From the NCBI GenBank assembly GCA_946477855.1, contig CAMKZU010000004.1, positions 1 through 64,000 on the forward strand: a stretch of DNA of 64,000 nt, given 5' to 3'. The translations under genes and the position numbers were made by a program. The stretch is from an uncultured Lactobacillus sp. GTDB taxonomy: Bacteria; Bacillota; Bacilli; Lactobacillales; Lactobacillaceae. This document shows, piece after piece, positions 15,281-38,773 of the stretch (the stretch's first letter is position 1; each line of letters opens with the position of its first letter). Below the pieces are notes generated by a model that was not told the origin of the DNA, did not search any database, and saw nothing but the letters and a program-made list of their open reading frames with translations.

Positions 15281-15419
15281 TATTATGTATCCTCATTTTA
15301 ATAAAAGCTCTATGTAACCAGTATAACTTAAAATAACTATAATGTTATAATTATTTCTTGTAAAAGCACTGCTGGGTAGTAAAATTAACTTAAATCGCTT
15401 TCTTTTGGAGAGGATACGT

Positions 15420-16922
15420 ATGGTAAAAAAATATATTATGGCAATTGATGAAGGGACTACTTCAACCAGAGCAATGATCATTGATCATCAAGGTCAAAAA
15501 ATAGCGTCTTCACAAAAAGAATTCCCCCAGTATTTTCCCCAGCCCGGTTGGGTAGAGCACAACGCCGAAGAAATTTGGCATGCAGTACAAAGTACTATTG
15601 CTAATGCCATGATTAATTCTGGTGTGCGACCAGAGCAGATAGCGGCTATTGGTATTACTAATCAGCGTGAAACCACAGTTATTTGGGATAAAAAAACCGG
15701 CAAGCCTATTTATAACGCAATTGTTTGGCAGTCGCGTCAAACTACCGCGTTAGCTGAAAAATTAAAAAATGACGGTTTTAGTGACCTGATCCATCAGAAA
15801 ACAGGGCTGATTATTGATCCGTACTTTAGTGCAACCAAAATTCGCTGGCTTTTAGATCATGTTGCAGGAGCACAAGAAAGGGCCGAAAAAGGTGAATTGC
15901 TTTTTGGCACCATTGATAGTTGGCTCTTATGGAATTTGACCAATGGCGAAGTCCATGTGACCGATTATACTAATGCTTCCAGAACCATGCTTTTTAATAT
16001 TCATGATCTAAAATGGGATGATGACATCTTAAAGCTGCTCAATATCCCTCAAGCAATGCTACCGGAAGTAAAGTCTAATTCTGAAATATACGGTTATACT
16101 AAGTCCTATACTTTTTTCGGGGGCAAAGTGCCAATAGCCGGCATTGCTGGGGATCAGCAGGCAGCCTTATTTGGTCAGCTGGCCTTGAAGAAGGGTATGG
16201 TAAAGAATACTTATGGCACTGGTTCATTTATTGTGATGAACACGGGAAATGAACCGACAGAATCGGATAATAATCTGTTGACAACTATTGCTTATGGTCT
16301 AAATGGTGAAATTTCTTATGCTTTAGAGGGCTCTATTTTTGTTTCCGGCAGTGCGATCCAGTGGCTGCGTGACTCCATGAAAATGATCAAGATAGCTGCA
16401 GATTCAGAAAAAGCGGCCAAGCAGTCAAAGTCTGAAAACGAGGTTTATGTTGTTCCGGCATTTACCGGCTTGGGCGCACCATACTGGGATTCGGAAGCAC
16501 GTGGCGCCGTTTTTGGCATCACACGGGGAACAAATAACTACGATTTTATCAAGGCGACGTTGCAATCGCTGGCTTATCAAACACGTGATGTAGTTGACAC
16601 AATGCAAGAAGATTCGGGCATTACAATTCCTGCTTTACGCGTTGACGGTGGCGCATCAAATAACGATTATCTGTTGCAATTTCAATCTGATATTTTAGGA
16701 ATCAAAATAGAACGTGCTCAAGTATTGGAAACAACCTCAATGGGTGCAGCTTTCTTAGCTGGACTAGCTGTTGGTTATTGGCAAAACGTTGAGGAATTAA
16801 AGGATATTTTTGTTATAGGTAAAACCTTTGCTCCGCAAATGTCACAGAGTGAAAGAGAAAATCTCTATCATGGCTGGAAGAAAGCAGTTAAAGCTACTCA
16901 ACTATTTGCGCATGACAAATAA
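15420..16922 (+). CDS. glpK: Glycerol kinase
   Basis: [58 protein letters not shown]. Confidence 0.94.
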
Positions 16923-19147: not shown

Positions 19148-20782
19148 TTACTTCTTTCCTCTCGAGTAAACCATTTTACCGTCAATCATCGTGAAGATTG
19201 GCTTAGTATTGTGGATGTCATGTGGATTAATTGTAAATAAGTCTTGATCAAGTAGAACCATATCAGCGGCTTTACCAACTTCGATTGAACCCGTTTCTTT
19301 TTCACGGAAGTTTTGGAAAGCACCATTAATCGTGTAACTGGTGAGCATTTGTTCGACACTGACTCTTTCAGTTGGGTCCAAGACAGTCTTTTCACTCTTA
19401 TCGCCGGGGGCACATCTGGTAACGCCAACTTCGATGGTTTCCATTGGATCAGGATTAGTCACTGGAAAATCAGTTGCGGCAGATACCAGAACGCCTTGAT
19501 CCCAAAATGACTTTAACTTGTATTCACGTGAGGCTCTTTCTAAGCCCAAATACTTAACTTCCAAAGCGTCAAAGTAAATTGGGTCCTTGAAGAACCAAGC
19601 TGGATCACAGGCAGCAATGACTTTGTCTTTAGCCATTCTGGCAATGTCACTTTCACGAATGACCTGCAGGTGAGTTAAAGTTGGGCGCCAATCTTTTTTA
19701 GGCTTTTTGGCTTGTGCATACTCAATTCCGGTCAAAGCTGCATCAATTGCGGCATCTCCAATAACGTGGCAGTGAACTTGGAAGCCCTTCTCTTTAGCCC
19801 GCCGCATCATGTTGTTTAATTGCTCTTGTGTGCAGTTGAAGTTACCCCGGTATCCCGGTTTATGAACATAGTCGTCAAAGAAGTAAGCCGTGGCTGATTC
19901 AACCACGCCATCAACGACAAACTTCAGGTTGTTGCACTTATAATGTTTGCCATGGTAAGCATCGCGAATAGCAGCAAAATCGTCTAATTTGTCGGGACTA
20001 TCATGCTCAGGTCTAATGTGGAAGCCTGATACGACCTTTAACTTTAATTTTCCTTCGATGTCCAATTCTTCCAGAGCCTGTTGTGCCCGAGTTTCATCAC
20101 GCAAAATTGGCTCGTAGATTGAAGTCAAACCCATTGATAATAAGCGATCTTGCAGCCATAAAACGGCTTTTTTAATTTCTTCAACCGTATAATCCGGAAC
20201 TGTCTTTAAAATATCGCCCATTGCCCATTCGCGGACTAAGCCAGTGGGTTCTTTGGTCTTAGGATCAAGAACGAATTCACCTTTTTCTTTGGAAACATAG
20301 CCTTTGCCGATGCCAGCATTTTCAAGAGCTTTACTGTTAACAATGTAAGAGTGTCCGTCAACTGATTGCAATAATACCGGCTTATCGCTGCATGCAGCAT
20401 CAATCCATGATTTGTCGGGTCTTTCGGCAATAATAGCATTTTCCCAGCCGGTACCCATGTAATAATCACGATCTGGATGTTCATCAACGTATTTTTTGAT
20501 AATCTTCGTGTAATCATCGACACTTTTACCACCAGCTAACTGAATCTTATACATTCCTTCAGTTGCACCAGATGAAAAGTGCATATGGCTATCTGTCATT
20601 CCCGGGATAAATAGTCCGTTGTTATTAACAATATATTCGGTCTTAGGACCAATATAAGATTTCGCTCCGTCTTTAGAGCCTACATAAACAAATTTACCGT
20701 CTTTAACAGCAACTGCCTCAACATATTTATGCTTTTGAGCAGCAGTAAAAATTTTTCCTGTTAAAACATAATCTGCTTCCAT
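19148..20782 (-). CDS. YtcJ-like metal-dependent amidohydrolase
   Basis: GLFIPGMTDSHMHFSSG, QVHCHVIGDAAIDAAL, SAATDFPVTNPDPMETI, GSIEVGKAADMVLLDQD; start adjusted to MEADYV. Confidence 0.88.
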   Translation of the reverse strand: MEADYVLTGKIFTAAQKHKYVEAVAVKDGKFVYVGSKDGAKSYIGPKTEYIVNNNGLFIPGMTDSHMHFSSGATEGMYKIQLAGGKSVDDYTKIIKKYVDEHPDRDYYMGTGWENAIIAERPDKSWIDAACSDKPVLLQSVDGHSYIVNSKALENAGIGKGYVSKEKGEFVLDPKTKEPTGLVREWAMGDILKTVPDYTVEEIKKAVLWLQDRLLSMGLTSIYEPILRDETRAQQALEELDIEGKLKLKVVSGFHIRPEHDSPDKLDDFAAIRDAYHGKHYKCNNLKFVVDGVVESATAYFFDDYVHKPGYRGNFNCTQEQLNNMMRRAKEKGFQVHCHVIGDAAIDAALTGIEYAQAKKPKKDWRPTLTHLQVIRESDIARMAKDKVIAACDPAWFFKDPIYFDALEVKYLGLERASREYKLKSFWDQGVLVSAATDFPVTNPDPMETIEVGVTRCAPGDKSEKTVLDPTERVSVEQMLTSYTINGAFQNFREKETGSIEVGKAADMVLLDQDLFTINPHDIHNTKPIFTMIDGKMVYSRGKK

Positions 20783-20872
20783 AATTCCCATCTCTTTCAC
20801 TAAATTTACCCATGTGACTAATAACACATGCGCTACAATTCATTATCCGCAAAAACACCATTTTCACATTAA

Positions 20873-22183: not shown

Positions 22184-23653
22184 TTATAATACGCTTTGCT
22201 TTGTTGAAAGGATATTAAGCCAATTTTCCCAGTCTTTGCGGTATAGTTGTGCTTGTGAAAACTTCATTTTAGGTGAATAAACCTTAACTGCGGCTATTTT
22301 ATTATTATGGCTCATAGCATTCATAGCTGTTCCTAAGGCACTCAATTCTGAAACAGCAGCAAGTTTAACTTGCATTTGGCTAATATCGCTTAAATATTGC
22401 ATTAAATATTGATTTTGAATCATCCCGCCATCAACGTTAAGCTCCCAGTTAATTTGCGGAAATAATTTTTTCAGTTCACTAATGGTGTCGCTTATTTGGT
22501 AAACTAATGAATCTAACGTCGCTTTTACCAGTTCGTTTTTACCAGTGATAGTCGTCATTCCGACAAAAGCTGCTTTCATATTCGGCTGCCAGTAGGGGGC
22601 GCCTAGACCCGCAAAGGCCGGGATTAAACAGGTGTGATCGTTGCGATTAGCTGCCAATGCTAAATTACTGGTTTCTTTAGGCGAACTAATCAGCTTTAAG
22701 TTATCCTTTAGCCAAGTAATGCAGGCGCCAGCGTAATTAATATTACCTTCAAGCACATAGGAAATTTGCCCATTTAAAGACCAGGCAATCGAAGTATTAA
22801 GCTTATTTTGAATACTTCGCGGCAGATTGCTGCCAATATTGAGCATCACGGAAGAACCTGTCCCAAAGGTAACTTTGAAATCTCCTGCATTAAAACAGCC
22901 ATGAGCATATAACGCAGCTTGTGAGTCACCCAGAACACTCATGATCGGGATAGAGTGGTTAAGCAATCCGAATAAATTCGTATTACCAAAGTGGGAATTA
23001 GAGTCAACGATTTCAGGCAGGCTTTCAATTGCGATACCAAAAATAGCTCCTAACTCTTGATCCCATTTTCCCGTATGGATGTTCATTAACTGGGTCCGGC
23101 AGGCATTTGAAGGTTCTGTTTTAAAACTCTTTTTATTAGTCAACTGGTAAATTAACCAACTGTCCATAGTCCCTAAGCAGAGATCGTCTTTTTCCTGGGC
23201 TTGAATTACTTTGGGCTCATGAAGCAGCATCCAGCCCCATTTAGCTCCGGTAAAGTAGGGCGAGAGCGCCAAGCCAGTTTTTGTTTTGACTGTTTCTGCT
23301 AATTTTGGATAAGAGATAGATTTGATCAGTTTCTCAGCACGATTGTCCTGCCAAACTATGGTGTTACAAAGGGGCGCACCTGTTTTTTTCGACCAGGCAG
23401 CTGCAGATTCACGTTGATTTGTGATTGCTAAGGCTGTCAGTTGGTCAGGTTTGACCTGCATAAGGGCAGCTTCAAAGAGCTTTTTTAAATTAGTCTTAAT
23501 TTCACTTAAATCGTGGCTAATCCATCCGTTCTTGCTGACTATTTGTTTATGAGATAAGCTGGTTTTCCAAAAAATCTGGTTATTTTGATCAATCAGAAGA
23601 ACTTTTGTACCCTGTGTACTCTGATCGATTGTTAAAACATATTTTTCAGGCAT
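22184..23653 (-). CDS. FGGY-family carbohydrate kinase
   Basis: KYVLTIDQSTQGTKVLLIDQNNQ, NTIVWQDNRAEKL, SVLGDSQAALYAHGCF, GAPYWQPNMKAAFVGMT; glycerol kinase-like but diverged. Confidence 0.88.
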   Translation of the reverse strand: MPEKYVLTIDQSTQGTKVLLIDQNNQIFWKTSLSHKQIVSKNGWISHDLSEIKTNLKKLFEAALMQVKPDQLTALAITNQRESAAAWSKKTGAPLCNTIVWQDNRAEKLIKSISYPKLAETVKTKTGLALSPYFTGAKWGWMLLHEPKVIQAQEKDDLCLGTMDSWLIYQLTNKKSFKTEPSNACRTQLMNIHTGKWDQELGAIFGIAIESLPEIVDSNSHFGNTNLFGLLNHSIPIMSVLGDSQAALYAHGCFNAGDFKVTFGTGSSVMLNIGSNLPRSIQNKLNTSIAWSLNGQISYVLEGNINYAGACITWLKDNLKLISSPKETSNLALAANRNDHTCLIPAFAGLGAPYWQPNMKAAFVGMTTITGKNELVKATLDSLVYQISDTISELKKLFPQINWELNVDGGMIQNQYLMQYLSDISQMQVKLAAVSELSALGTAMNAMSHNNKIAAVKVYSPKMKFSQAQLYRKDWENWLNILSTKQSVL

Positions 23654-23666
23654 AAATTACCAGCCT

Positions 23667-24611
23667 CTATTCAGACAAAAAACTTTTGACAGACTTCTTG
23701 ATGCCGGCGGTGTCAAGTCCATAATAACGAAAGACTTCGTCTTGTGTTCCTTGAATTGCCGGTTCGTCTGGAAAGCCTAAAATTTTAAGTTTGGCATGAC
23801 CGTACTGTGCCACTTCACATGCTATGGCGGCACCGATGCCGTTAATAACGTCATGTTCTTCTATAGTTACTAAGTAATTAAATTTTTGTGCTAAGGCGGC
23901 AATCATTTCGGTATCAAGCGGCTTGATTGAAGCAAGATCAACCACAGCAGCTTGTATGCCGTCTTTAACCAGTTCTTTAGCGGCTTGAAGGGCAAAGTAT
24001 AATGTCTCGCCAGTAGAGATTAAGCAAACGTCTTTACCGGGAAGGATTACTTTGGCCTTGCCGGGAGTGAAATGGAAATCTTTGTGGTAAACATTGTCCA
24101 GCTTACGTTTACCAATGCGCACATAAGCAGGCTTATCTGACTTAAGCAGATATTTGAATAGTGCTTTGATTTGGTATTTATCGCATGGCTGGTAGACTTC
24201 GAGGTCGGGAATTGCCCGCGTAATTGCCACATCGTTAAGTGAATGGTGGGTATTGCCCAGCCAAGTGTATGAATTACCGCCAGAAATACCAATGAGTTTA
24301 ACGTTATTGTGGTTAAATGCTACATCGACTTTGACTTGTTCAATTGCTCGCATGGCCAGAAATGAAGCTGGAGAAAAGACATAGGGATGCATACCTTCAT
24401 GAGCCATACCTGCGGCTACAGTTACGGCATTTTGTTCAGCTATGCCCATTTCTATGGTTCTGTCGGGATGTGCGTTAGTGAAAGGAACTAGTCCTGCCGA
24501 TCCCCGAGAATCGCATGTGACCACTATTAAATCTGGATCGCTAGTAGTTGCCTCGTCGAGCGTTTTTGCAATGACTGCATTTGCAGTTAATTTTTCATCC
24601 ACCTTATTCAT
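23667..24611 (-). CDS. Transketolase C-terminal (Pyr + C) subunit
   Basis: DRTIEMGIAEQNAVTVAAGMAHEGMHPYVFSPASFLAMRAIEQ...VTIEEHDVINGIGAAIA. Confidence 0.92.
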   Translation of the reverse strand: MNKVDEKLTANAVIAKTLDEATTSDPDLIVVTCDSRGSAGLVPFTNAHPDRTIEMGIAEQNAVTVAAGMAHEGMHPYVFSPASFLAMRAIEQVKVDVAFNHNNVKLIGISGGNSYTWLGNTHHSLNDVAITRAIPDLEVYQPCDKYQIKALFKYLLKSDKPAYVRIGKRKLDNVYHKDFHFTPGKAKVILPGKDVCLISTGETLYFALQAAKELVKDGIQAAVVDLASIKPLDTEMIAALAQKFNYLVTIEEHDVINGIGAAIACEVAQYGHAKLKILGFPDEPAIQGTQDEVFRYYGLDTAGIKKSVKSFLSE

Positions 24612-25437
24612 TATTTAACGCCTCCATTTGTGCATCTAATTCCTGTAATCCTGCTTGGTATTCAGTTGCAGTAGGAATTTTATGGTGCCAATCCGCTCTG
24701 TTTTCGGCTGCTGAAATACCTTTGCCCTTGACCGTATTAGCAATAATCAGGCGTGGCTTGTTGGTGTCATTTGGCTTAGTTAAAATATTAACCACATCGC
24801 CCATATTATTGCCATTAACTTCCAAAACATCCCAGTTGAATGCACGGTATTTGGTGCTTAGCGGGTTTGAGCGCATCACTGAATCGGTAGTGCCGGAAAT
24901 TTGCAGGTCATTGTGGTCAATAATGGCCGTGAGATTGTCTAAGTTATAATTACCAGCTGCCATTGCGGCTTCCCAAATTGATCCTTCAGCTTGTTCACCG
25001 TCACCCATTAAAACGTAAATGTGTTTGCGTAACTGCTTCATCTTAGCTGCAAGAGCGACACCAACGCCTAAACCTAGCCCATGACCCAGTGAGCCCGTAT
25101 GAAATTCCATGCCTTTGACTTCAGTAGTTGGATGGCCAATATAGGGACTGTTAAAAGTAGAGTACCTTTTTTCAAGGTCAGCGCGATCTATATAACCTTT
25201 ATCAGCTAAAATTTCGTACCAGATTTCAACAGCATGACCCTTACTTTGAATATACGTGTCAATATCTTTTTGACCAATGTTTTCTGCATTTTGGTTCATA
25301 ACCGCATAGTATAAAGCAACTAAGATATCAGCACAGGATAAGTCAGAACCGGTGTGACCGTTTTGGTGATTATAGATTAGCTGCCACGTTCTTTTTCTTA
25401 GTGCAACAGCCTTCTTTTTTAATTCAAGAATATTCAT
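24604..25437 (-). CDS. Transketolase N-terminal (TPP-binding) subunit
   Basis: GHTGSDLSCADILVALYY, GSLGHGLGLGVGVALAAK, YVLMGDGEQAEGSIWEAAMAAGNYNLDNLTAIIDHNDLQ. Confidence 0.93.
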   Translation of the reverse strand: MNILELKKKAVALRKRTWQLIYNHQNGHTGSDLSCADILVALYYAVMNQNAENIGQKDIDTYIQSKGHAVEIWYEILADKGYIDRADLEKRYSTFNSPYIGHPTTEVKGMEFHTGSLGHGLGLGVGVALAAKMKQLRKHIYVLMGDGEQAEGSIWEAAMAAGNYNLDNLTAIIDHNDLQISGTTDSVMRSNPLSTKYRAFNWDVLEVNGNNMGDVVNILTKPNDTNKPRLIIANTVKGKGISAAENRADWHHKIPTATEYQAGLQELDAQMEALNNE

Positions 25438-25504
25438 GAAAACACCTCATTATCAAAAATAATTACTTGTAATTGCTTACACTGATAGAGTATCATGCTT
25501 ATAA

Positions 25505-25543
25505 CTAGTTTAGTTATATTGATTAGTTAGTTTAGCTTATATT
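25505..25543. promoter_or_regulatory. Tandem putative operator CTAGTTTAGTTATATT / TTAGTTTAGCTTATATT
   Basis: Direct repeat in divergent intergenic region; third copy at 26635. Confidence 0.5.
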
Positions 25544-25573
25544 AGTAAACAATAATATTGAAGAGATGATTTT

Positions 25574-26590
25574 TTGAACCTAAAAATGAGTGATATTGCA
25601 AAGATAGCGGGCGTTTCTAAAGCCGCAGTTTCTTTTGCTCTAAATGGCAAGCCGGGCGTAAGCGAAAAAACCAGAAAAAAGATTTTTAAGGTTATTAAAG
25701 ATCAAGGTTATGAACCGCTACGCAAACATAAAAAAGGCGGGGTTCGCAAATTAGCCAGTATCAGTCTGATTATTATTCGCGATCGAGCTGGAATGATGAA
25801 TCGGAGCTATGCCAGCCTGCCCTTTTTTGACACCTTAATATCTAACTTAACGCAAAATATTGGCGGTTTTGGCGGACAAGTCCAAATTGTGCAACTGGAT
25901 ATCAATCACTTGCAAGATAATCTGAATGAAAATACAGCATTGCTGCAGTCTAAGGCTTCAATTGTGCTGGCAACCGATCTGAATAAAAAGCAAGTTAAGT
26001 TAATAAATCAAAAACTAAAAAATGTGATCTTTATTGATACGTATTTTAAAGATGTAAATGCCGATTTTATCTCAATTGATAATTTTCAAGGGGCATATTT
26101 AGCAGGTAAATATATTTTGGCTAAAGGCTATCGGAAAATAGGCTATGTTGCTTCTAACCATAGTATTCCCAATTTTGCGCAAAGACGGGCAGGCTTTACC
26201 CAGGCCCTAAAAGAGAAAAACATTGAAATTCCGCCGGAATTTATTTTTAGCTTAAATCCTACTGAACTTAGAGGAGCCTTGCCGCAATTTATTCATTTGA
26301 GCAAAGTTTTTCCTGAAGTACTTTTTTGTGAAAATGATTATATGGCTCTGCGTTTGGTCAAAGAATTTACCAAAGAAAAAATTAGAGTTCCTCAGGACAT
26401 TGCAATCATGGGCTTTGATGATATTTTTGAAGACACGATGGTTACGCCGGAATTAACAACGATTCACGTCCCGATAACGCAGATTGTCAGCCAAGCAATT
26501 AATCAATTACAAAACAAAGCTGCTGACCACAATTGGCTGCCCCAAAAGTGCTTTATCTCAACCAAATTGGTTAAAAGGGAATCATTATAA
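25574..26590 (+). CDS. LacI family transcriptional regulator
   Basis: LKMSDIAKIAGVSKAAVSFALNGKPGVSEKTRKKI HTH; GFDDIFEDTMVTPELTTIHVP. Confidence 0.92.
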   Translation: MNLKMSDIAKIAGVSKAAVSFALNGKPGVSEKTRKKIFKVIKDQGYEPLRKHKKGGVRKLASISLIIIRDRAGMMNRSYASLPFFDTLISNLTQNIGGFGGQVQIVQLDINHLQDNLNENTALLQSKASIVLATDLNKKQVKLINQKLKNVIFIDTYFKDVNADFISIDNFQGAYLAGKYILAKGYRKIGYVASNHSIPNFAQRRAGFTQALKEKNIEIPPEFIFSLNPTELRGALPQFIHLSKVFPEVLFCENDYMALRLVKEFTKEKIRVPQDIAIMGFDDIFEDTMVTPELTTIHVPITQIVSQAINQLQNKAADHNWLPQKCFISTKLVKRESL

Positions 26591-26634
26591 AAATAGTTTA
26601 GTCTAATTAAGTAAAAACAGTATTGAATGGTCTT

Positions 26635-26652
26635 CTAGTTTAGTTTATATTT
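26635..26652. promoter_or_regulatory. Putative operator CTAGTTTAGTTTATATTT
   Basis: Matches the two motifs at 25505-25543. Confidence 0.5.
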
Positions 26653-26701
26653 TGCTTTGGAAGCGAATACAAAAATAAACAATTAGGAGGCTCTTTTTTT
26701 A

Positions 26702-28150
26702 ATGGTTAATAATAAAAGTTTACAAAAAATAAAAATTGGCTTTGTACCAACTAGAAGAAACATTTTCTCAGCAACAGCAGCGATTGAATTTGCAGATAAA
26801 ACCCGTAAAAAATTAGATGAATTGGGAATTAACTACGTTGATATTAAAGAAGTTAATGATGATGGACTTCTTTATGATGATGACGGACTCGAAAAAATAA
26901 CCCAGAAATTTAAAGCGGCGGCTATTGATGGTTTGTTTATTGCAAACGAAAATTTTGGTACCGAGTATGAAGTTGCACGTCTGGCAGCTAAATTCAACGT
27001 ACCTGTTCTTTTGTGGGGGCCAAAAGACGAGGCACCGGCTCCCGACGGTTCAAGGAGGCGCGATACGCAATGTGGTCTATTTGCTATTGGTAAAGTTCTG
27101 CGTCACTTTAATGTTCCTTTTACCTATATTAGAAATAGCGATATTGCTGATCCGTCATTCAGCCGCGGAGTAATTGATTTTGTGAAGGTATGCAATGTTG
27201 TTAAAACTTTTAGGAATACCCGTGTTTTGCAGATAGGTCCTCGTCCCTTTGATTTCTGGTCAGTTATTGTCAATGAAGGCGAATTATTGGAAAAATTCGG
27301 TATTCAACTTTCACCAATCCCTTTAGGTGAGCTTACTTCATATATGAATGATTTAATTAAGAAAAACGATCCGCGCATTTCAGAGACTAAAGATACTTTT
27401 AGAAAATGGGCAGATATTAAAATTAAGGAAGATGATTTTACTAAAGTCGCTGCCTTGAAATTGGCTATGCAAGATAAAATGAAACAATATGACTGCAACT
27501 GTGGCACTATTCAATGCTGGACGGAGCTGCAGCGTGAAATCGGAATTTTGCCGTATGCTTCTGAGGCTTTGCTCCAAACAGAAGGACTGCCGGTAACTTG
27601 CGAGACTGATATTAACGGGGCAATTTCAGAAGTCTTGGCAGAATCTGCTACACTTGGGGATGAAAGAGCGTTATTTGCTGATGTCAACTGCCGCCATCCT
27701 GAAAACGAAAACGGCGAATTGTTGCAGCATCTGGGTACATTTGCTTTCCAAACGGCTAAAAACCGTCCGGTTTTGCCACCATCGCACTTTGTATTTGATT
27801 ATCCCGGTTCTGCTGCTTTTCAGGCTAAAGACGGCACTTATACTTTAGTTCGTTTTGACGGTGACCACGGCAAGTATTCTATGCTGCTGGGCAATGCTAA
27901 AACTTGTGCGGGTCCGTATGAACAAGGAACTTATGCTTGGTTTGAATTTAATGATCTAAACCGTTTTGAAGCAAAATATGTCTATGGGCCTTATATTCAT
28001 CACATGGCTGGCGTCCGTGCCGACGTTGTGCCAATTCTTGCTGAAGCAGGAAAGTACATTAACGTTGAACCAGATTATTTTGACCCGATTAAAGATAAAG
28101 TTGCAGCATATTGGTACGGCGACTATGAATCGATTTTAACTGATAAATAA
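26702..28150 (+). CDS. L-fucose/L-arabinose isomerase family protein
   Basis: KIGFVPTRRNIFS, GPKDEAPAPDGSRRRDTQCGLFAIGKVLRHF, CNCGTIQCWTELQREIGILPYASEALLQTEGLPVTCETDINGA. Confidence 0.8.
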   Translation: MVNNKSLQKIKIGFVPTRRNIFSATAAIEFADKTRKKLDELGINYVDIKEVNDDGLLYDDDGLEKITQKFKAAAIDGLFIANENFGTEYEVARLAAKFNVPVLLWGPKDEAPAPDGSRRRDTQCGLFAIGKVLRHFNVPFTYIRNSDIADPSFSRGVIDFVKVCNVVKTFRNTRVLQIGPRPFDFWSVIVNEGELLEKFGIQLSPIPLGELTSYMNDLIKKNDPRISETKDTFRKWADIKIKEDDFTKVAALKLAMQDKMKQYDCNCGTIQCWTELQREIGILPYASEALLQTEGLPVTCETDINGAISEVLAESATLGDERALFADVNCRHPENENGELLQHLGTFAFQTAKNRPVLPPSHFVFDYPGSAAFQAKDGTYTLVRFDGDHGKYSMLLGNAKTCAGPYEQGTYAWFEFNDLNRFEAKYVYGPYIHHMAGVRADVVPILAEAGKYINVEPDYFDPIKDKVAAYWYGDYESILTDK

Positions 28151-28178: not shown

Positions 28179-28213
28179 AAGGCAAGAATATTCCCATATT
28201 CTTGCTTTTTTTG
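28179..28213 (+). terminator. Intrinsic terminator
   Basis: GGCAAGAATAT tccc ATATTCTTGCTTTTTTT. Confidence 0.8.
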
Positions 28214-28376: not shown

Positions 28377-29303
28377 ATGAGTATTAATATCTCGGTTCTT
28401 GGCAGTATCAATTTAGATACTACTTATCATGTTACTCATATCCCGTTACCTGGTGAAACGCTCCAAGTAAATAAGAAAACGTATGCTGGTGGCGGGAAAG
28501 GAGCTAATCAAGCAGTGGCTGCACAGCGTAGCGGTGCTACTGTTCATTTTATCGGCGCAGTAGGCAACGATACTGCAGGAAAATTTATGCTGGAAACAAT
28601 GGGCAAGGAAGACATTGATTTAGCTAACGTCGAAGTTAAAGAAAACGAGCAAACAGGTGCGGCTACAATTTTGCTTGATAAGAATGGACAAAACAGTATT
28701 TTGGTTTATGCCGGAGCTAACAGTTTAATTAGTCATAAACAGATAGTTAAAGCAGAAGATGTGATTGCAAAGTCTCAGTACATTATTGCGCAGTTTGAAA
28801 CGCCAATTAAAGCAACTCTTGAGGCTTTTAAGATTGCTAAAAAACATGACGTGATAACTATTTTAAATCCTGCTCCAGCTGCAAAAATTAGTGATGAACT
28901 ATTGGAATTAACGGACATTATTACTCCTAACGAAACAGAAAGTGCCTTTATTACAGGCATCAAAGTCAAAGACCAAAATGCAATGCACGAAACAGACATG
29001 TACTTTAAGAAAAAAGGAGTAAAAGTAACATTAATTACTTTAGGTTCGCGCGGAGTACACTGTTCGATTGGCTCTATCAGCCAATTAGTTCCTGCACACA
29101 AAGTCCATGTAGTAGATACTACGGGAGCCGGAGATACTTTCGTTGGTGCAATGGCATCCATATTAAAACCAGATTTTTCAAATATTTTTGAAGCGATTGA
29201 TTATGGTCAAAAAGCTTCATCAATCACCATTGAAGTTATGGGTGCGCAACCTTCAATTCCTACCAGAGAAAAGGTTGAGCAGGTGTACGGAAAGGAAGAT
29301 TAA
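28377..29303 (+). CDS. rbsK: Ribokinase
   Basis: [57 protein letters not shown]. Confidence 0.93.
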
Positions 29304-29304
29304 T

Positions 29305-29700
29305 ATGAAGAAAACAGGTATTTTAAATTCTAATATCTCTCGTGTCGTGGCTGATATGGGGCACATGGATTGGCTAGGAATTGGTGATGCGGGTACGCCC
29401 GTACCGCCAGAAACAGAAAAAATTGATTTGGCAGTTTCTGCCAACCTCCCCTCATTTACGCAAGTTTTAAAAGAAGTTCTTAAAGAATTGGCTGTGCAAA
29501 AAGTTTATGTTGCTGAGGAAATTAAGAAACAGAACCCACAGCAGTTAGAAAACATTAAAGCAATTTTGCCAAACGTTGAAATTGAGTTTATTCCTCACAG
29601 TGAATTAAAGCAGGATTTACGCAGGGCAAAAGCTTTTATTCGAACAGGAGAAGAGACGCCTTTCTCAAACGTAATTCTCGAAAGTGGTGTGATTTTTTAG
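29305..29700 (+). CDS. rbsD: D-ribose pyranase
   Basis: [34 protein letters not shown]; start adjusted to 29305. Confidence 0.93.
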
Positions 29701-29715
29701 GAGGTGAGCCTTTTC

Positions 29716-31194
29716 ATGAAAATTGAAATGAAAGGGATTGAAAAATCTTTTGGAACCAATAAAGTTTTACGGGGTGTGGATTTTGACGTTCATTCTGGCG
29801 AAGTCCATGCGTTAATGGGCGAAAACGGCGCCGGCAAGTCTACTTTAATGAATATTTTAACTGGCTTACTAAAAAAAGACGCGGGCTCAATTAAAGTTGA
29901 TGACCACGACACTACCTACGCCAGCGCATTAGACGCGGAACATCATGGCATTAGTTTTATTCACCAAGAAATGAATAACTTTGCCGAAATGAGCGTTGTC
30001 GATAATATGTTTTTGAATAAAGAAATTAAAACTAAGCTGGGCCTAGTTGATCAAAAGAAAATGAGAAAAGAAGCCCGGCAGTATTTGGTGAATTTAGGTT
30101 CAGACATTGATGTTGACAGTAAAATGGGCGACTTGACTGTAGGTCAGCAGCAAATGGTGGAAATAGCTAAGTCTCTGATGATTAACGCCAAAATAATTAT
30201 TATGGACGAGCCTACTGCCGCACTGACTGAGAATGAAACTGCTATTTTATTCAAAACTATTAGAGAATTAAGGTCTAATAGCGTCGGCTTTATTTACATA
30301 TCGCACAGAATGGAAGAACTCTGGCAAATATGTGACCGGGTAACAGTTATGCGTGATGGCTTATCAGTTAACACTTATCAGACCAAAGACGTTGCCGAAA
30401 ATCAAATCGTTCACGACATGGTAGGGCGTGACATTGGCGACTATTATCCTGGCCGCCACCCGCATTTGGGAGAAGTGGCATTAAAAGCTGAACATTTATC
30501 AGGCAAGAAGTTTCACGATATCAGTTTTGAAGTCCACGAAGGAGAAATTTTAGGATTTTCCGGCTTGATGGGAGCTGGCAGAACGGAAACCATGAGAGCC
30601 TTATTTGGAATTGACAAATTAAGCTCCGGTAAAATCTATGTCGCTGGCAAGGAAACAAAATTAACCAGTCCCAGCGTCTCCATTAAAAAGGGCATTGGCT
30701 TTTTAACTGAAGATAGAAAAAATGAGGGTCTGATTACTGAACAATCTTTAGAAGATAATATTGCCCTGCCAAGTATTGATACTTTCCGTAAGCATGGCAT
30801 TATTGACAAAAAAGCAGAAGACAAATTTGCTGACATGCTGATTAAGCGGCTAACAGTGAAGGCTAATAATGCGCAAGTAACGGCCGGCAGCTTGTCAGGC
30901 GGTAACCAGCAAAAGGTTGTTTTAGCTAAATGGGTTGGCAGCGGCTCCAAGATTTTAATTTTGGATGAACCAACTCGTGGAGTTGACGTAGGTGCCAAGA
31001 AAGAAATTTATGAACTGATGAATCAGTTAACCGACAGACACGTAGCCATCATAATGATTTCTAGTGACCTGCCTGAAGTTCTTAGTATGAGTGATCGTAT
31101 TGAAGTGCTGTATGAAGGTAAACAAATGGGCGTCATTAATGCCCAAGGTGCAACTCAAGAACAAGTGATGAAATTAGCTACAGGAGGAAAGTAG
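29716..31194 (+). CDS. rbsA: Ribose-type ABC transporter ATP-binding protein (two ABC domains)
   Basis: GENGAGKSTLMNILTG, LSGGNQQKVVLAKWV, LDEPTRGVDVGAK. Confidence 0.93.
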   Translation: MKIEMKGIEKSFGTNKVLRGVDFDVHSGEVHALMGENGAGKSTLMNILTGLLKKDAGSIKVDDHDTTYASALDAEHHGISFIHQEMNNFAEMSVVDNMFLNKEIKTKLGLVDQKKMRKEARQYLVNLGSDIDVDSKMGDLTVGQQQMVEIAKSLMINAKIIIMDEPTAALTENETAILFKTIRELRSNSVGFIYISHRMEELWQICDRVTVMRDGLSVNTYQTKDVAENQIVHDMVGRDIGDYYPGRHPHLGEVALKAEHLSGKKFHDISFEVHEGEILGFSGLMGAGRTETMRALFGIDKLSSGKIYVAGKETKLTSPSVSIKKGIGFLTEDRKNEGLITEQSLEDNIALPSIDTFRKHGIIDKKAEDKFADMLIKRLTVKANNAQVTAGSLSGGNQQKVVLAKWVGSGSKILILDEPTRGVDVGAKKEIYELMNQLTDRHVAIIMISSDLPEVLSMSDRIEVLYEGKQMGVINAQGATQEQVMKLATGGK

Positions 31195-31195
31195 A

Positions 31196-32161
31196 ATGGA
31201 CAAGGCAAAAACAACAAAAAAGAAATTTGATTTTACGAAATACATGGCGCTCGTGGCTTTAATAATTTTAGTAATTATTATTACAGTTTTAAACCCACAA
31301 TTTATTGCGCCAAATAACTTATTAAATTTGCTTCGTCAAGCATCGGTCAACGCTCTAATCGCCTTTGGGATGACATTTGTTATTCTTACTTCCGGTATTG
31401 ATTTATCTGTCGGTTCTATTTTGGCTTTCACAGGAGCTATCAGTGCCAGCTTGATTTTAGGTGGCACACCTGCTTGGCTTGCCGCATTAATTGGCCTTGC
31501 AATCGGAGCTTTATTGGGGGCACTCAATGGTGTATTCATCACCTGGGGCAAAGTTACCCCCTTTATTGCCACCTTGGCTACTATGACTATTTGGCGCGGT
31601 GCCACATATGTCTTCACAGGTGGCAATCCTATTACTGGCGGTAAAATGAATACCAGCTATTTCTTCCAATTTGTAGGGCAAGGCTATTTATTTGGTATTC
31701 CATTTCCAGTAATTATTACTCTGATTGCATTTATTATTTGCTACGTTCTACTTCATAAAACGGCTTTTGGTCGTAAGACCTTCGCGTTAGGCGGCAATGA
31801 AAAAGCTGCGTTTGTGGCCGGTGTTAAAACTAAGAAATTATTGATTATTATCTACACGATTTCTGGTTTATTTGCGGCTTTGGCTGGCTTTATACTAACT
31901 TCAAGATTAGGTTCAGCACAGCCCGATGCAGGTATGTCTTATGAAATGGACGCTATTGCTTCCACTGTTATTGGTGGTGCCAGCCTGATGGGCGGTAAAG
32001 GAAGAATGGCAGGGACTCTCGTGGGTGCTTTGTTAATTGCTTCTTTAAGCAATGGTATGAATTTACTCGGGATTAATAGTTTCTATCAACAAATTGTTAA
32101 AGGTGTCGTAATTTTAATTGCGGTTATGATTGATTCCCAAACACAAAAGAACAGGGAATAA
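31196..32161 (+). CDS. rbsC: Ribose-type ABC transporter permease
   Basis: FGMTFVILTSGIDLSVGSILAF, TVIGGASLMGGKGRMAGTLVGAL. Confidence 0.92.
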   Translation: MDKAKTTKKKFDFTKYMALVALIILVIIITVLNPQFIAPNNLLNLLRQASVNALIAFGMTFVILTSGIDLSVGSILAFTGAISASLILGGTPAWLAALIGLAIGALLGALNGVFITWGKVTPFIATLATMTIWRGATYVFTGGNPITGGKMNTSYFFQFVGQGYLFGIPFPVIITLIAFIICYVLLHKTAFGRKTFALGGNEKAAFVAGVKTKKLLIIIYTISGLFAALAGFILTSRLGSAQPDAGMSYEMDAIASTVIGGASLMGGKGRMAGTLVGALLIASLSNGMNLLGINSFYQQIVKGVVILIAVMIDSQTQKNRE

Positions 32162-32183
32162 AATTATTTTTAGAGGAGAAATA

Positions 32184-33185
32184 ATGATGAATATTAAAAA
32201 TTTTTCCAAACGATTGATGAAAATTGCTACTGCAGCTTCTGTCTTGCTTTTAGCAGGGGGAATTCTTGCGGGCTGTGGTTCCACAGGCTTAAGCAACAGT
32301 TCGGGTTCGTCTTCTAAAGTAGAAAAGAAGGCACCAAAAGATTTGAAAATTGGTGTGTCTATCTCAACATTGACTAACCCCGCATTTGTTAATTTAAAGA
32401 ATGTTATTAGTGACTACGCTAAAAAGCATGGTTCAAAAGTCATCATCGATGACGCAAATAATGATACTTCAAAGCAAAATAACGACGTTGAAGATTTAAT
32501 CACACAAAAGGTAGATGCCTTAATTATCAACCCTTGTGATTCTTCAGCTATTTCTACAGTAGTTAAAAAAGCTAATGATGCTAAAATTCCTGTAATCTGT
32601 GTTGACCGTAGTGCTGACTCCGGTAAAGTAGTTTCAACAGTTGCTTCTGACAATATTGCCGGAGGTAAAAAAGCTGCTAATTGGTTAATTGAAAAATTAG
32701 GCGAAAATGCTAAAATTGCTGAAATTCAAGGAATTCCTGGAGCTTCCGCCACACGTGAACGTGGTAAAGGTTTTGATAGTATTGGTGATAAGAAATTAAA
32801 TATTGTGACTAAGCAGACCGCTCAGTTTGACCGTGCCAAGGCCCTGACCGTTACCGAAAACATTTTACAAGCTCATAGCGATATTAAAGGTATTTTTGCC
32901 CAAAACGACGAAGAAGCAGTTGGTGCAGCTCGAGCTGTTAAAGCAGCCAACAAGAAAATAACTATCATTGGTTTTGATGGTACTCTTGCCAGCTTGAATT
33001 TAATTCAAAAGGGTCAAATTACGGCTACTGTTGGTCAGCAATGGAATAAGATAGGTCAAGAATCTGTCCAAAAGGTTTACGATCACTACCAGAATAAGAA
33101 GGTTCCTAAGAACGACAAGGTAGCAGTCAAGATTATTACTAAGAATAATGTAGCTTCATTTAAGAAGCAAGTTTACAACAAATAA
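32184..33185 (+). CDS. rbsB: Ribose-type ABC transporter substrate-binding lipoprotein
   Basis: Lipobox LLAGGILAGC; DALIINPCDSSAI, periplasmic-binding fold. Confidence 0.92.
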   Translation: MMNIKNFSKRLMKIATAASVLLLAGGILAGCGSTGLSNSSGSSSKVEKKAPKDLKIGVSISTLTNPAFVNLKNVISDYAKKHGSKVIIDDANNDTSKQNNDVEDLITQKVDALIINPCDSSAISTVVKKANDAKIPVICVDRSADSGKVVSTVASDNIAGGKKAANWLIEKLGENAKIAEIQGIPGASATRERGKGFDSIGDKKLNIVTKQTAQFDRAKALTVTENILQAHSDIKGIFAQNDEEAVGAARAVKAANKKITIIGFDGTLASLNLIQKGQITATVGQQWNKIGQESVQKVYDHYQNKKVPKNDKVAVKIITKNNVASFKKQVYNK

Positions 33186-33259: not shown

Positions 33260-34219
33260 TTAATATGTCGAATTTCTCTTAATAGGAATGACGTTAATAA
33301 TACTATTTTGACTAGATTTCTTTCCATTGATTAAATCTAATAATCGCCTTGCTGCAGTTTGACCAATCAATTTAGGCTGTTGGTCAATTGTAGAAATTGT
33401 AGGCGTAGTATATTCGCATAGCACGTTATTGTCATAGCCTATAAGTTGAAAATCAGCTGGGATTTTAAGATTACGCCGTTGAGCTTCCTTAATAATTTCC
33501 GCAGCATAGATATCATTAACTGCAATTACAGCGTCAAAACGATTGCTTTTCTTTAAGACTTCTTGCGCAGCTTTCTCAGGATCGGTTTCGGAAACCTTTT
33601 TAAGCATGTAGGGAATATTAAGCTTGTTTAGCTCGTTAACTAGTGACTCTACTCTTTCCCTTACTGTTGGCAATCTCAGCGGCCAATGCTGAATCATTAC
33701 CCTAGTTGCCTGATTTTGCAATAGAGAAATACAGTCTTTGCCACCTTTGATATTGTCTGAAACTATGCGGGCAACATTATCATCAATATTAGCGCTATCA
33801 TACATTACAAGAGGTGTTGCCAAGTTTAAATTAGCTGGCATATCAAAAGCGGCAGTGATAATGCCGTCAATATTATTTTTTTGGAACTCGTTAATAAAAT
33901 TCAAATAGTTTTTTTTATTTGAATTGGCGCTAAAAGAAATTAGCGCAGAATAGCCTTTTTTTTGGAGAATAGATTGAATGCCGTCAATAATTTGGGCATA
34001 AAAACGGTTGTTTAGGTCGGGGATGATGATGCCAATCATCCGCGATTTTTTTTGGTATAAAGTTCGTGCTACTTGATTAGGCTGATAATTTATTTCTTTG
34101 ATAACTCGTTCGACTTTTTTTCTAGTAGCAGGGCTGACGTTAGGCGAATCATTAATAATTCGAGAAACAGTAGCTACAGAAACTCCGGCTAATTTAGCCA
34201 CATCTTTAATAGTAGACAT
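33260..34219 (-). CDS. LacI family transcriptional regulator
   Basis: STIKDVAKLAGVSVATVSRIINDSPNVSPATRKKVERVI. Confidence 0.93.
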   Translation of the reverse strand: MSTIKDVAKLAGVSVATVSRIINDSPNVSPATRKKVERVIKEINYQPNQVARTLYQKKSRMIGIIIPDLNNRFYAQIIDGIQSILQKKGYSALISFSANSNKKNYLNFINEFQKNNIDGIITAAFDMPANLNLATPLVMYDSANIDDNVARIVSDNIKGGKDCISLLQNQATRVMIQHWPLRLPTVRERVESLVNELNKLNIPYMLKKVSETDPEKAAQEVLKKSNRFDAVIAVNDIYAAEIIKEAQRRNLKIPADFQLIGYDNNVLCEYTTPTISTIDQQPKLIGQTAARRLLDLINGKKSSQNSIINVIPIKRNSTY

Positions 34220-34319
34220 GATTGATCCTTTTTTAATTACTGTAATGGGTTACATTTTTATTATAACTCATAAATTAATTTATCCTATTTTAGTCATAGT
34301 TAAGTAAATCGCTATTGCT

Positions 34320-34335
34320 TTGTAACCGGTTACAA
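34320..34335. promoter_or_regulatory. Palindromic LacI-type operator TTGTAACCGGTTACAA
   Basis: Perfect 16-bp palindrome between divergent lacI and MFS genes; imperfect second copy TGTAATGGGTTACA at 34241-34254. Confidence 0.75.
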
Positions 34336-34393: not shown

Positions 34394-35623
34394 ATGAACG
34401 TTGAAAATTTGCGGGAGAAAAATAAGGGTAACTGGAAACTCAAAGTAGGAATTTTGGGGATCTCACTTTTTTTGCAGGTTGCTGGTTCTAACCTGGCGGC
34501 GATACCTCTAATTGCCAAATCTTTTCCCCATGAATCTGTGACTTCGGTGCAGGCATTATTTACTATTCCATCATTCACAATCATGTTGTTCATCTTGTTC
34601 AGCAATGCTGTCATTAAGTGGTTTGGTAAAAGAAATACCGTAATCATAGGCATGATTGTAGCTGTAATTGGTGGTATTATTCCGTTTTTTGTTAATAATT
34701 TTACTATTATTGTGATTAGCCGTTTGTTGGTTGGAGCAGGTATAGGGCTGTTTACATCCCTTGCCGTTTCTTTAATTGGTGACTGCTTTAGTGGTGAAGA
34801 ACAGAAGACTTTAATTGGTATTCAAGGAGCTATGGGGACTCTGGGTAACAGCTCGATGACCTTTGTTTCCGGCTTGCTTTTGGGAATCAAATGGCAAGCA
34901 ACCTTCTTGTACTTTTTAATTATAATTCCTTTCTTAGTTCTCTTTATGATGGGTTACACACCAAAAATGGAGCAGGAAACGACTGTTGAAGGGCAAAGTG
35001 CTGCAGCGAATAATACCCAAACGAAAAAGCACGTTAAAATACCCGGTTTAATATATGTTGCCTTTTTGATGCTGTTTCTATTCTTTTCAGCTTTTATGGT
35101 TGAAGCTACAGCTTCGGCTTTAGTTATTGAACAGAATCATCTTGCCAATCAGGGTGCACTTTCTACAGAAATCGCAATCGCGGGCCTAATTGGCGCAGTG
35201 ATTTCTATGGCATATTCGAAAATCTTTAAGATGTTAAAGCACTTTACCCCGGCAGTAGCAGTTGCCTGCGGTGCGGTTGGCTTTATTGTTTGCTCAAAAG
35301 CAGGCAACATGGCTATTTTCTTTATCGGTTTACTATTAATGATGATTGCCAACTTAATTATCCCTTATGTTTATGACACAATCTTGGGAGAAGTTGACGG
35401 CTCAATCAGTAATATGATTATTTCAATTGCGCAAGTCTGCAATAATTTAGGTGCATTTGCCTCTCCTTATGTTATTTCAAGCTTATGCAAAATAACAGGC
35501 TTAAGTACGGCAGTTGATCAAATGAAGATCAGTGCAGGTATATTGGGCCTAATAGCAGTTGTTTTTGTAATAATGGCAATTCTTAGAAGTAAAGGCAGTA
35601 ATAAAGCTAGAAATGTGGCGTAG
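34394..35623 (+). CDS. MFS transporter
   Basis: 12-TM pattern; KWFGKRNTVIIGMIVAVIGG, SRLLVGAGIGLFTSLAVSLIGD. Confidence 0.88.
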   Translation: MNVENLREKNKGNWKLKVGILGISLFLQVAGSNLAAIPLIAKSFPHESVTSVQALFTIPSFTIMLFILFSNAVIKWFGKRNTVIIGMIVAVIGGIIPFFVNNFTIIVISRLLVGAGIGLFTSLAVSLIGDCFSGEEQKTLIGIQGAMGTLGNSSMTFVSGLLLGIKWQATFLYFLIIIPFLVLFMMGYTPKMEQETTVEGQSAAANNTQTKKHVKIPGLIYVAFLMLFLFFSAFMVEATASALVIEQNHLANQGALSTEIAIAGLIGAVISMAYSKIFKMLKHFTPAVAVACGAVGFIVCSKAGNMAIFFIGLLLMMIANLIIPYVYDTILGEVDGSISNMIISIAQVCNNLGAFASPYVISSLCKITGLSTAVDQMKISAGILGLIAVVFVIMAILRSKGSNKARNVA

Positions 35624-35646: not shown

Positions 35647-37182
35647 ATGACGACAATTAAAAAATGGCACAGATATGAATTATCCCTAGATGGACCAAAA
35701 AATGGTAATCCGTTTAGAGATGTCAACTTGACTGGAACGATCAACCATAACAATCATTTTGTCACCGTTGACGGTTTTTATGATGGCAATGGTATTTACA
35801 AGATTAGGTATATGCCGGAACAAGTGGGCGAATATACCTTGACTACAGCTTCTAATATACCTGCTCTTGATAAAAAAGAGGTTCATTTTACAGTTGCAAA
35901 CGCTGAAGGCAATAATCATGGTCCGGTTCGGGTTGCCGGTAAAACTCATTTCGCCTATGCGGACGGCACAGGTTTTATTCCGTTTGGCACTACAGCTTAT
36001 GCTTGGACTGTTCAACCAGCAAATATCCAAAAGCAGACTATTCAAACTTTAAAGGAGAATAGTTTCAATAAAATTAGAATGCTGGTTTTTCCAAAAAGCT
36101 ATGACTATAACAATAATGAACCGGAAATTTATCCTTTCGCAGGTCAACCTAATGTTAAGCGCGGAGGAACTGATTGGGTCTTTGATGGTGCCAATACTGG
36201 CTTTGATTTTACCCGTCCAGTGCCCCAGTACTTCCAAAACCTGGAGAATAATATTGACAAGCTGGATGAGCTGGGAATCGAAGCTGATCTGATTTTATTC
36301 AGCCCCTATGACCGCTGGGGCTTTGCCCGTATGGGGCTGAAGAATAACTTAGAATATGTAAAATATATAGTTGCCCGTTTGGCATCGTATAAGAATGTTT
36401 GGTGGTCTTTAGCCAATGAGTACGATTTAATGGATATGTGTGGACAAATTCCGCTAAAAGATTGGGATGTAATCGGACAGTATGTGCATGAAAAAGATCC
36501 GTCTAACCACTTGGAATCAATCCATAACTTTTATGATCCCCCTCAGCATAAAGACACAATTAAAAATTGGTATGATCATACTAAGCCGTGGATCACGCAC
36601 TTAAGTATCCAAACTGATAATTTATTCATGGTGCCTAAATGGATTGCTGAATACCAAAAGCCGGTAGTGGTTGATGAATGCCGCTATGAAGGCAATATTG
36701 AATTTGGCTGGGGTGATAATACGGCTCAAGGAATGATGGACAGCTTCTGGCGGGTCATCTTGCGTGGTGGAGGTTGTACACACGGCGAAACATACATTGA
36801 CAAGCCTAATACTGACCGACCGATCTGGTGGGCACATGGAGGTAAGTTATACGGAGAAAGTCAAAAGAAAATTAATTTCTTAAATGACTTGCTCCAAGAT
36901 AACGGTTTTAGCTGGGTAAAGCCTCAAGCTACATCCGGTCCTCACTGGGATTATGCAGTAGGCTCAAATCCTAAAGAAGATAAATGGTTGGTTTATTTTG
37001 GCGACAATGGGTCTGAATTTGTTATCTTGGACTTTTTACCTGAAAACAAGAAATATACTGCCAAACTAATTAACGCTTGGACGGAAACAACACAAGATTT
37101 TGCGGCTGAAATTACTAAAAAAGAAAAATTTCATCTTCCAAGAAAACCATACCAAGTCTTACTTTTAACTGAAAAACATTAA
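35647..37182 (+). CDS. DUF5060-type N-terminal domain + apiosidase-like (DUF4038/DUF5605-related) TIM-barrel glycoside hydrolase, cytoplasmic
   Basis: N-terminal Ig-like WHRYELSLDGPKNGNPFRDVNLTG; barrel FGTTAYAW, WWSLANEYDLM (candidate acid/base), PVVVDECRYEG (candidate nucleophile); no signal peptide. Confidence 0.75.
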   Translation: MTTIKKWHRYELSLDGPKNGNPFRDVNLTGTINHNNHFVTVDGFYDGNGIYKIRYMPEQVGEYTLTTASNIPALDKKEVHFTVANAEGNNHGPVRVAGKTHFAYADGTGFIPFGTTAYAWTVQPANIQKQTIQTLKENSFNKIRMLVFPKSYDYNNNEPEIYPFAGQPNVKRGGTDWVFDGANTGFDFTRPVPQYFQNLENNIDKLDELGIEADLILFSPYDRWGFARMGLKNNLEYVKYIVARLASYKNVWWSLANEYDLMDMCGQIPLKDWDVIGQYVHEKDPSNHLESIHNFYDPPQHKDTIKNWYDHTKPWITHLSIQTDNLFMVPKWIAEYQKPVVVDECRYEGNIEFGWGDNTAQGMMDSFWRVILRGGGCTHGETYIDKPNTDRPIWWAHGGKLYGESQKKINFLNDLLQDNGFSWVKPQATSGPHWDYAVGSNPKEDKWLVYFGDNGSEFVILDFLPENKKYTAKLINAWTETTQDFAAEITKKEKFHLPRKPYQVLLLTEKH

Positions 37183-37890: not shown

Positions 37891-38376
37891 TTATTTATCC
37901 TTTTTAGTGAGCAATGGCTTTATTGGCTGTTTTTCGTTTTGCGGTACTATTTGCACGTAAACATTTACGCCTTTATTTAGTAAACGCTCGAAGCATTCGT
38001 CTTCTGCTGGGCTGGTAGAGATGTATTGGTATAGGGTGCTGCGACCATCTTTTGCTCCCATACCTCCCAAGTCAACTTCTGTAATGTCAATACCATGATC
38101 AACCATATATTCGATAGTTTCAGGAACCTTAACCAAGATAATGGTCGGGGCTTCCAGTGGTTGTGAAAAGAATGTGACGCCGTCTTCTTTATTAAATATA
38201 CCAATACCAATATCTTCGGGTATCGCCTGCTCAAAAACGTTGATCATAAAGTCATTATTTGATGTTGCGTCATCCACAATAACAACGTTTTGTGCTCCGG
38301 TTTCTTTGAGCCACTTGGTCATGACTTGACCATGAATTAAACGGTCATCAATTCTAGTTAAGACTAAGTTTTGCAT
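37891..38376 (-). CDS. PTS mannose/fructose/sorbose-family IIB
   Basis: LTRIDDRLIHGQVMTKWLKETGAQNVVIVDD. Confidence 0.93.
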   Translation of the reverse strand: MQNLVLTRIDDRLIHGQVMTKWLKETGAQNVVIVDDATSNNDFMINVFEQAIPEDIGIGIFNKEDGVTFFSQPLEAPTIILVKVPETIEYMVDHGIDITEVDLGGMGAKDGRSTLYQYISTSPAEDECFERLLNKGVNVYVQIVPQNEKQPIKPLLTKKDK

Positions 38377-38773
38377 GATGTGTTCCTCCTAATTTACTAT
38401 TTTGAATACCCCAGTTTTCATTATTTAAACAGATATTGAGCAAATCGCTAATCGAACTTTTTGCTGTTCTACTAGTAATAATGCTTAAAAGCATAGGCAC
38501 ATTAACCCCAGTAACTATTTCTAAATTATATTTTTGTTTTAAATACATTGCCGTATTAAAAGGCGTACCACCCTTTAAATCTACCAGTACTAATGTAGGT
38601 TGGTCATTTTGCGATTTTAGTACTTGTTCAAAATTATCCCTATAATTATCAGGATCTTGACCGGGTTTAAAAGAAATTGTTTCCAAGTAGTCTGTTTTTC
38701 CGGCAATCATTTCCACGGTCTGTTTCAACCCTAAACAATATTGACCATGACTAGCTAAAATAATTTGTATCAA
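38354..38773 (-). CDS. PTS mannose/fructose/sorbose-family IIA
   Basis: IILASHGQYCLGLKQTVEMIAG; VLVDLKGGTPFNTA. Confidence 0.92.
   Translation of the reverse strand: MIQIILASHGQYCLGLKQTVEMIAGKTDYLETISFKPGQDPDNYRDNFEQVLKSQNDQPTLVLVDLKGGTPFNTAMYLKQKYNLEIVTGVNVPMLLSIITSRTAKSSISDLLNICLNNENWGIQNSKLGGTHHAKLSLN

Follow-up and report, generated by a model that had tools for sequence, protein, structure and literature searches.

The window analyzed here, a 64,000-nucleotide stretch of an uncultured Lactobacillus sp. (contig CAMKZU010000004.1, assembly GCA_946477855.1), carries a cluster coding for an isomerase, an FGGY kinase, a two-subunit transketolase, and a LacI-family regulator, which most likely represents the known D-apiose transketolase pathway as it occurs in Firmicutes. 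D-apiose, an unusual branched sugar of plants, is probably its substrate, given that the kinase and transketolase subunits match AplK and AptAB, the kinase has serines at two substrate-site positions, hydrolases of the PF13204 family are associated with the cluster, and related Clostridial clusters encode an apiose-type binding protein. The source genome is a Lactobacillus metagenome-assembled genome, 67% complete, and the window isomerase shares 99% identity with the one from Lactobacillus helsingborgensis, a honey-bee gut species. Genes, folds, catalytic residues, linkage, co-occurrence, and AplK-type residues were determined by computation.

A conserved unit of isomerase, kinase, and split transketolase

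An earlier note on this DNA described five genes, all of which are present at the positions it gave, the list of open reading frames (ORFs) and the Pfam domains being in agreement. They are arranged as follows.

22184..23653, minus strand: FGGY kinase (Pfam FGGY_N/C), related to GlpK with AplK substrate-site residues, predicted D-apulose kinase (AplK-like)
23667..24611, minus strand: TKb, transketolase C-terminal subunit, AptB-like, with pyrimidine-binding and C-terminal domains and a GIAEQ motif
24604..25437, minus strand: TKa, transketolase N-terminal subunit, AptA-like, thiamine diphosphate binding, with a GDG...N motif
25468..25481, no strand: palindrome TGTAATTGCTTACA between TKa and lacI, operator-like or cre-like (CcpA)
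25574..26590, plus strand: LacI-family regulator (Pfam LacI), divergent from the kinase-transketolase operon
26702..28150, plus strand: isomerase with the L-arabinose/L-fucose isomerase fold, predicted D-apiose isomerase, with conserved E301, D327, H343, and H434

Pfam matches over the cut-off were FGGY_N/C for the kinase, Transket_pyr and Transketolase_C for TKb, Transketolase_N for TKa, and LacI for the regulator. The TKa and TKb ORFs share 8 bases, and the listed start of the LacI gene is a TTG, with an ATG four codons further in.

Of 401 Lactobacillaceae genomes, 23 have an isomerase orthologue, invariably with TKa, TKb, and kinase genes next to it, which excludes chance grouping. At least 520 stretches in GTDB genomes encode relatives of the isomerase; the best 80 of these loci include 79 with TKa, 76 with TKb, and 73 with the kinase, and some of the gaps reflect truncated contigs. 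As gene order varies among loci, with divergent or codirectional arrangements, the linkage has probably been selected rather than passively inherited. The isomerase, split transketolase, and kinase are one conserved unit. The proposal that isomerase, kinase, and C2 transfer belong to a single dedicated catabolic unit is borne out by linkage and by co-occurrence with the isomerase.

The thiamine diphosphate site of the transketolase is complete across the two ORFs, with GDG...N in TKa and GIAEQ, including the catalytic Glu, in TKb. Split TKa occurs in 11 of 61 Lactobacillus genomes, exactly those with the isomerase, and in none of the 50 isomerase-negative ones; the split transketolase is therefore dedicated to the isomerase-kinase unit. 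Whether it might be the only housekeeping copy had been set beforehand as a test, and a housekeeping role was rejected because 50 of the 61 genomes do without it. Full-length transketolases are present in four of these 61 genomes only. One of them, G415, which is near-identical to the window genome, has two separate full-length enzymes in addition to the split one.

Kinase and transketolase subunits resemble AplK and AptAB

Carter et al. (2018) are said to have defined the D-apiose transketolase pathway and to have described AplK as acting on apulose. As references for AplK, AptA, and AptB we used the Escherichia coli SE15 locus ECSF_RS02670-02715. The window kinase is 33% identical to AplK, TKa 45% to AptA, and TKb 34% to AptB, each over nearly the full length. 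These similarities uphold the suggestion that the enzyme logic is that of the D-apiose route, the sugar probably being D-apiose. The route was also presented as new, which no longer holds, as D-apiose-growing E. coli strains carry aplK, aptA, and aptB (PMC13001218). The same source gives E. coli K-12 as unable to grow on D-apiose.

The kinase scored 463 bits against the GlpK model TIGR01311 (cut-off, 590) and 158 bits against the XylB model (cut-off, 380). AplK itself is a relative of glycerol kinase. In GlpK, Q246 and F270 are residues of the glycerol pocket. Both are replaced by serine (Q246S and F270S, E. coli GlpK numbering) in 75 of 76 cluster kinases and likewise in AplK of E. coli, Rahnella, Sodalis, and Klebsiella, whereas true GlpKs have Q and F, as does the window's own glycerol kinase (15405-16922). 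By its sequence, the cluster kinase is of the AplK type and not a GlpK; a plain glycerol kinase was rejected on the TIGR01311 score and the two serines. If the apiose assignment is right, this signature could be used to reannotate false glycerol kinases. In Listeria monocytogenes (L140:4004-13086), the same cluster lies with a beta-glucoside phosphotransferase system (PTS) and a DUF4038 gene, and its "glycerol kinase" has Ser at both positions, so that this annotation is probably wrong.

Loci on Rhizobium and Agrobacterium plasmids (L145 and L147) combine a split transketolase and an AplK-type kinase with short-chain dehydrogenases/reductases and a sugar ATP-binding cassette (ABC) system, and L145 also has a triose-phosphate isomerase. 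No isomerase of the window family was found within 6 kb of either. They perhaps encode a related route in which, as has been proposed for E. coli, a dehydrogenase takes the place of the isomerase.

The isomerase

The window isomerase had no match in a Pfam scan, and its only NCBIfam match, SftI (sulfoquinovose isomerase, NF048012), was far below the cut-off (85.5 bits versus 700). Single-sequence and profile searches of the PDB returned nothing useful, and only a fold search was informative. The AlphaFold model (mean predicted local distance difference test score, 90.7) matched solved L-arabinose isomerases with template modeling scores of 0.83 and 0.80, and L-fucose isomerases less well. E301, D327, H343, and H434 are invariant among the window isomerase, its relatives, enterobacterial homologues, and sulfoquinovose-isomerase-like proteins. 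We take their counterparts to be the metal-site residues E306, E333, H350, and H450 of E. coli AraA, with which the spacing agrees. Given the AraA-like fold and this four-residue site, the protein is very probably an active aldose-ketose isomerase.

The isomerase family had been regarded as a difference from the apiose route. This mostly dissolves, since the aptA-aptB-isomerase-aplK clusters of Klebsiella, Rahnella, and Sodalis also encode an isomerase, presumably ApsI, whose annotation reads either "L-fucose/L-arabinose isomerase family" or "fucose isomerase." Our comparisons with ApsI used these enterobacterial cluster proteins, not Pectobacterium ApsI. The Firmicutes isomerases form a deep clade of their own, apart from both the enterobacterial apiose-cluster isomerases and the sulfoquinovose-isomerase-like proteins. 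The enzyme route most likely in use is one already known, with an isomerase from a separate branch of the family.

A Clostridial locus (L118:3575-6456) has a second isomerase, of PF02952, beside a kinase with XylB as its best model, about 5 kb from its apiose-type cluster. This isomerase is 35% identical to the Klebsiella apiose-cluster isomerase, and the pair is probably a XylA-II xylose pair.

Hydrolase, transporters, and regulation

Downstream of the isomerase, the window contains the following features.

28182..28212, plus strand: intrinsic terminator-like hairpin (10-bp perfect stem and T-run), 3' of the isomerase gene and before the ribose operon
28377..33185, plus strand: ribose-type operon rbsK-rbsD-rbsA-rbsC-rbsB, an optional neighbour
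33260..34219, minus strand: second LacI-family regulator, divergent from the transporter-hydrolase unit
34241..34334, no strand: palindromes TGTAATGGGTTACA (34241-34254) and TGTAACCGGTTACA (34321-34334), ahead of the transporter-hydrolase unit
34394..35623, plus strand: major facilitator superfamily (MFS) transporter, predicted apiosyl-glycoside uptake
35647..37182, plus strand: predicted cytoplasmic glycoside hydrolase, DUF5060-Apiosidase(PF13204)-DUF5605, predicted to supply the sugar of the isomerase

The hydrolase that had been reported about 9 kb downstream does exist, but it lies about 7.5 kb from the end of the isomerase gene, beyond the ribose operon, the second LacI gene, and the MFS gene. 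Its PF13204 match scored 57 bits (cut-off, 26.5). Among Lactobacillaceae, 17 of the 23 genomes with the isomerase encode a PF13204 hydrolase, as against 7 of the 378 without it; the Fisher P value of 8.8e-20 ignores shared ancestry and hence overstates the significance, which is weaker in reality. A DUF4038-type hydrolase gene lies within 10 kb of the isomerase gene in 22 of 29 Lactobacillales loci, and for the short type of PF13204 hydrolase the best solved relative is 8t9w, deposited as "Apiosidase." The MFS gene adjoins the hydrolase gene in five other loci as well (L063, L064, L067, L070, and L072).

Uptake genes differ between clusters. The Clostridial clusters encode a ribose-type binding protein with 36 to 48% identity to its counterpart in the E. 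coli apiose locus, and the companion gene, DUF2291, was confirmed in L129. Transporters thus vary, and the DUF2291 system is not essential to the pathway. Relatives have a beta-glucoside PTS, an antiterminator, or a 6-phospho-beta-glucosidase gene within the cluster, which suggests apiosyl-glucosides as a natural source of the sugar.

The ribose operon has a cre-like site and its own promoter region, and L. pasteurii (L065), L. colini (L062), and Lp. pingfangensis (L130) likewise have it as a neighbour of the cluster. It was rejected as a core part because RbsB is absent from two genomes with the cluster (G171 and G037) and the terminator hairpin separates the two. Possibly, it also serves as a putative apiose importer. 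Brochet et al. (2021, PMC8456714) report specific induction of a cluster for "ribose utilization" in L. helsingborgensis on pollen; it may or may not be the window operon. The species is also reported to induce sugar-alcohol PTS clusters on pollen, and at 37891-41271 the window has PTS genes adjoining a LacI regulator and a gene resembling transaldolase. Upstream of the cluster, an ARAGORN tRNA-Ser(gct) call (20686-20777, minus strand) falls within the 5' part of an amidohydrolase ORF (19148-20827); it is likely a false call, or else the start of the amidohydrolase gene is misplaced.

The palindrome TGTAANNNNTTACA occurs in three exact copies in the window, against 0.2 expected. It is common to the intergenic regions of the kinase operon and the MFS-hydrolase unit and is conserved in L060, L061, L063, and L064.

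Proposed pathway

We infer the substrate, the order of the steps, the phosphoketolase link, and uptake as follows. After uptake of a plant apioside, a PF13204-type glycosidase would release its D-apiose, which the metal-dependent isomerase would convert to D-apulose. The GlpK-derived FGGY kinase would phosphorylate D-apulose to D-apulose 4-phosphate. The two-subunit transketolase would then transfer the C2 unit of apulose 4-phosphate to glyceraldehyde 3-phosphate, yielding dihydroxyacetone phosphate (DHAP) and xylulose 5-phosphate. From known reactions, phosphoketolase could cleave xylulose 5-phosphate, giving acetyl phosphate together with glyceraldehyde 3-phosphate, and so renew the acceptor, for a net yield of one DHAP and one acetyl phosphate per apulose 4-phosphate. 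Because glyceraldehyde 3-phosphate would be regenerated, no other transketolase or pentose-phosphate enzymes would be needed. Phosphoketolase was found in all 49 near-complete Lactobacillus genomes sampled.

A bolder version, which we put forward tentatively, is that the Firmicutes isomerase was recruited independently and that split transketolase and phosphoketolase make up a two-enzyme C2 cycle by which bacteria that mostly have no other transketolase obtain acetyl phosphate and DHAP from a branched sugar of plants, or that an unrecognised branched aldose other than apiose is processed by the same logic.

If the apiose assignment is true, the cluster, which occurs in hundreds of Firmicutes, including lactobacilli, enterococci, Listeria, and Lachnospiraceae, gains a named substrate; at present its genes are annotated as "glycerol kinase," "transketolase," and "L-fucose/L-arabinose isomerase." Bee-gut and food lactobacilli would then be predicted to use apiose from plant glycosides, which bears on the processing of dietary apiosides.

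Alternative readings

Several observations weigh against the assignment to D-apiose. The identities of TKa, TKb, and the kinase to their E. coli references are modest, and Rhizobium loci of unknown role have split transketolases nearly as close to ours as AptA/AptB, along with kinases that also have both serines. These rhizobial sets without a window-type isomerase make another branched or rare aldose possible. At only about 25% identity to the presumed ApsI, with which it shares superfamily and catalytic residues, the predicted D-apiose isomerase stands in a separate deep clade. The window hydrolase, placed at a distance under a second LacI regulator, gave no match to the solved apiosidases 8t9w and 5msy up to an E value of 10 and matched only 4n0r, deposited as a "putative glycoside hydrolase." No DUF2291 apiose-type ABC transporter was seen near the window cluster, and phosphoketolase was not found in the window's own 67%-complete genome. 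As for regulation, since the TGTAACCGGTTACA site also matches the cre consensus, the sharing of TGTAANNNNTTACA may be a mark of general catabolite control and not of a regulon specific to the two units.

Some of these points would fit a cluster in which the same enzymes handle another rare aldose, the isomerase clade having a substrate of its own, and a ketose other than apulose being turned over by the kinase and transketolase. The deep separation from enterobacterial ApsI and the rhizobial kinases are compatible with this, as is the lack of an apiosidase-type hydrolase gene within 10 kb in about one-quarter of the Lactobacillales loci and most others. Nevertheless, the strong association with PF13204 hydrolases, the apiose-type ABC system of the Clostridial clusters, and the gene-for-gene correspondence with enterobacterial apiose clusters make it rather unlikely.

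The order of the last two steps might also be reversed, with the transketolase acting on free apulose and the GlpK-like kinase phosphorylating the dihydroxyacetone thus freed. Glycerol kinases are known to phosphorylate dihydroxyacetone, and the window kinase retains GlpK-type R83, E84, W103, and D245. However, the AplK changes make its pocket unlike that of glycerol kinase, and AplK reportedly acts on apulose; we consider this order improbable.

A sulfosugar route, which the earlier note had offered as an alternative, would make the isomerase a sulfoquinovose isomerase (SqvD) and the transketolase SqwGH. It likewise uses a two-subunit transketolase, and SftI is the sole NCBIfam match of the isomerase; yet the route as described has no kinase (PMC12890257), the SftI score is very low, and the SqvD-like proteins of Lactobacillaceae belong to another deep clade (21 to 25% identity) and adjoin transaldolase-like genes, so that it is very improbable. 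Equally so is the use of a common pentose by a XylA-II-type xylose isomerase, a xylulokinase, and a general-purpose transketolase: Clostridium does have a proven xylose isomerase related to fucose isomerase, but XylA-II is PF02952 (PMC2873477), a family that gave no match to the isomerase of the window, L118 has such an isomerase with a XylB-best kinase on top of its window-type cluster, the window kinase scores poorly as XylB, and phosphoketolase-bearing lactobacilli need no transketolase for xylulose 5-phosphate.

Comparison with known systems

The predicted D-apiose cluster of the window shares with apsI-aplK-aptA-aptB of Enterobacterales the two-subunit transketolase, the GlpK-like FGGY kinase with S246 and S270, a linked isomerase of the L-fucose/L-arabinose family (in Klebsiella, Rahnella, and Sodalis), a sugar-responsive regulator, and nearby uptake genes. 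It differs in the distant clade of its isomerase and in a LacI regulator rather than one of the enterobacterial type. Where Enterobacterales have a DUF2291 ABC system, we find apiosidase-type hydrolases, joined in relatives by a beta-glucoside PTS and 6-phospho-beta-glucosidase, and in lactobacilli phosphoketolase could close the cycle. The L. monocytogenes cluster is similar in its isomerase and TKa (56% identity each), its order isomerase-TKa-TKb-kinase, and a divergent LacI gene; unlike in the window, a short-type DUF4038 hydrolase and the PTS lie inside the operon, and the annotated names give no hint of apiose. The window hydrolase has the PF13204 catalytic domain of the GH140/DUF4038 apiosidases (BT1012, 5msy; 8t9w), in contrast to which it also has DUF5060 and DUF5605. 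The sulfosugar transketolase pathway (SqvD, SqwGH) resembles the cluster in pairing an isomerase with a split transketolase and differs from it in having no kinase and in an isomerase of the SftI type.

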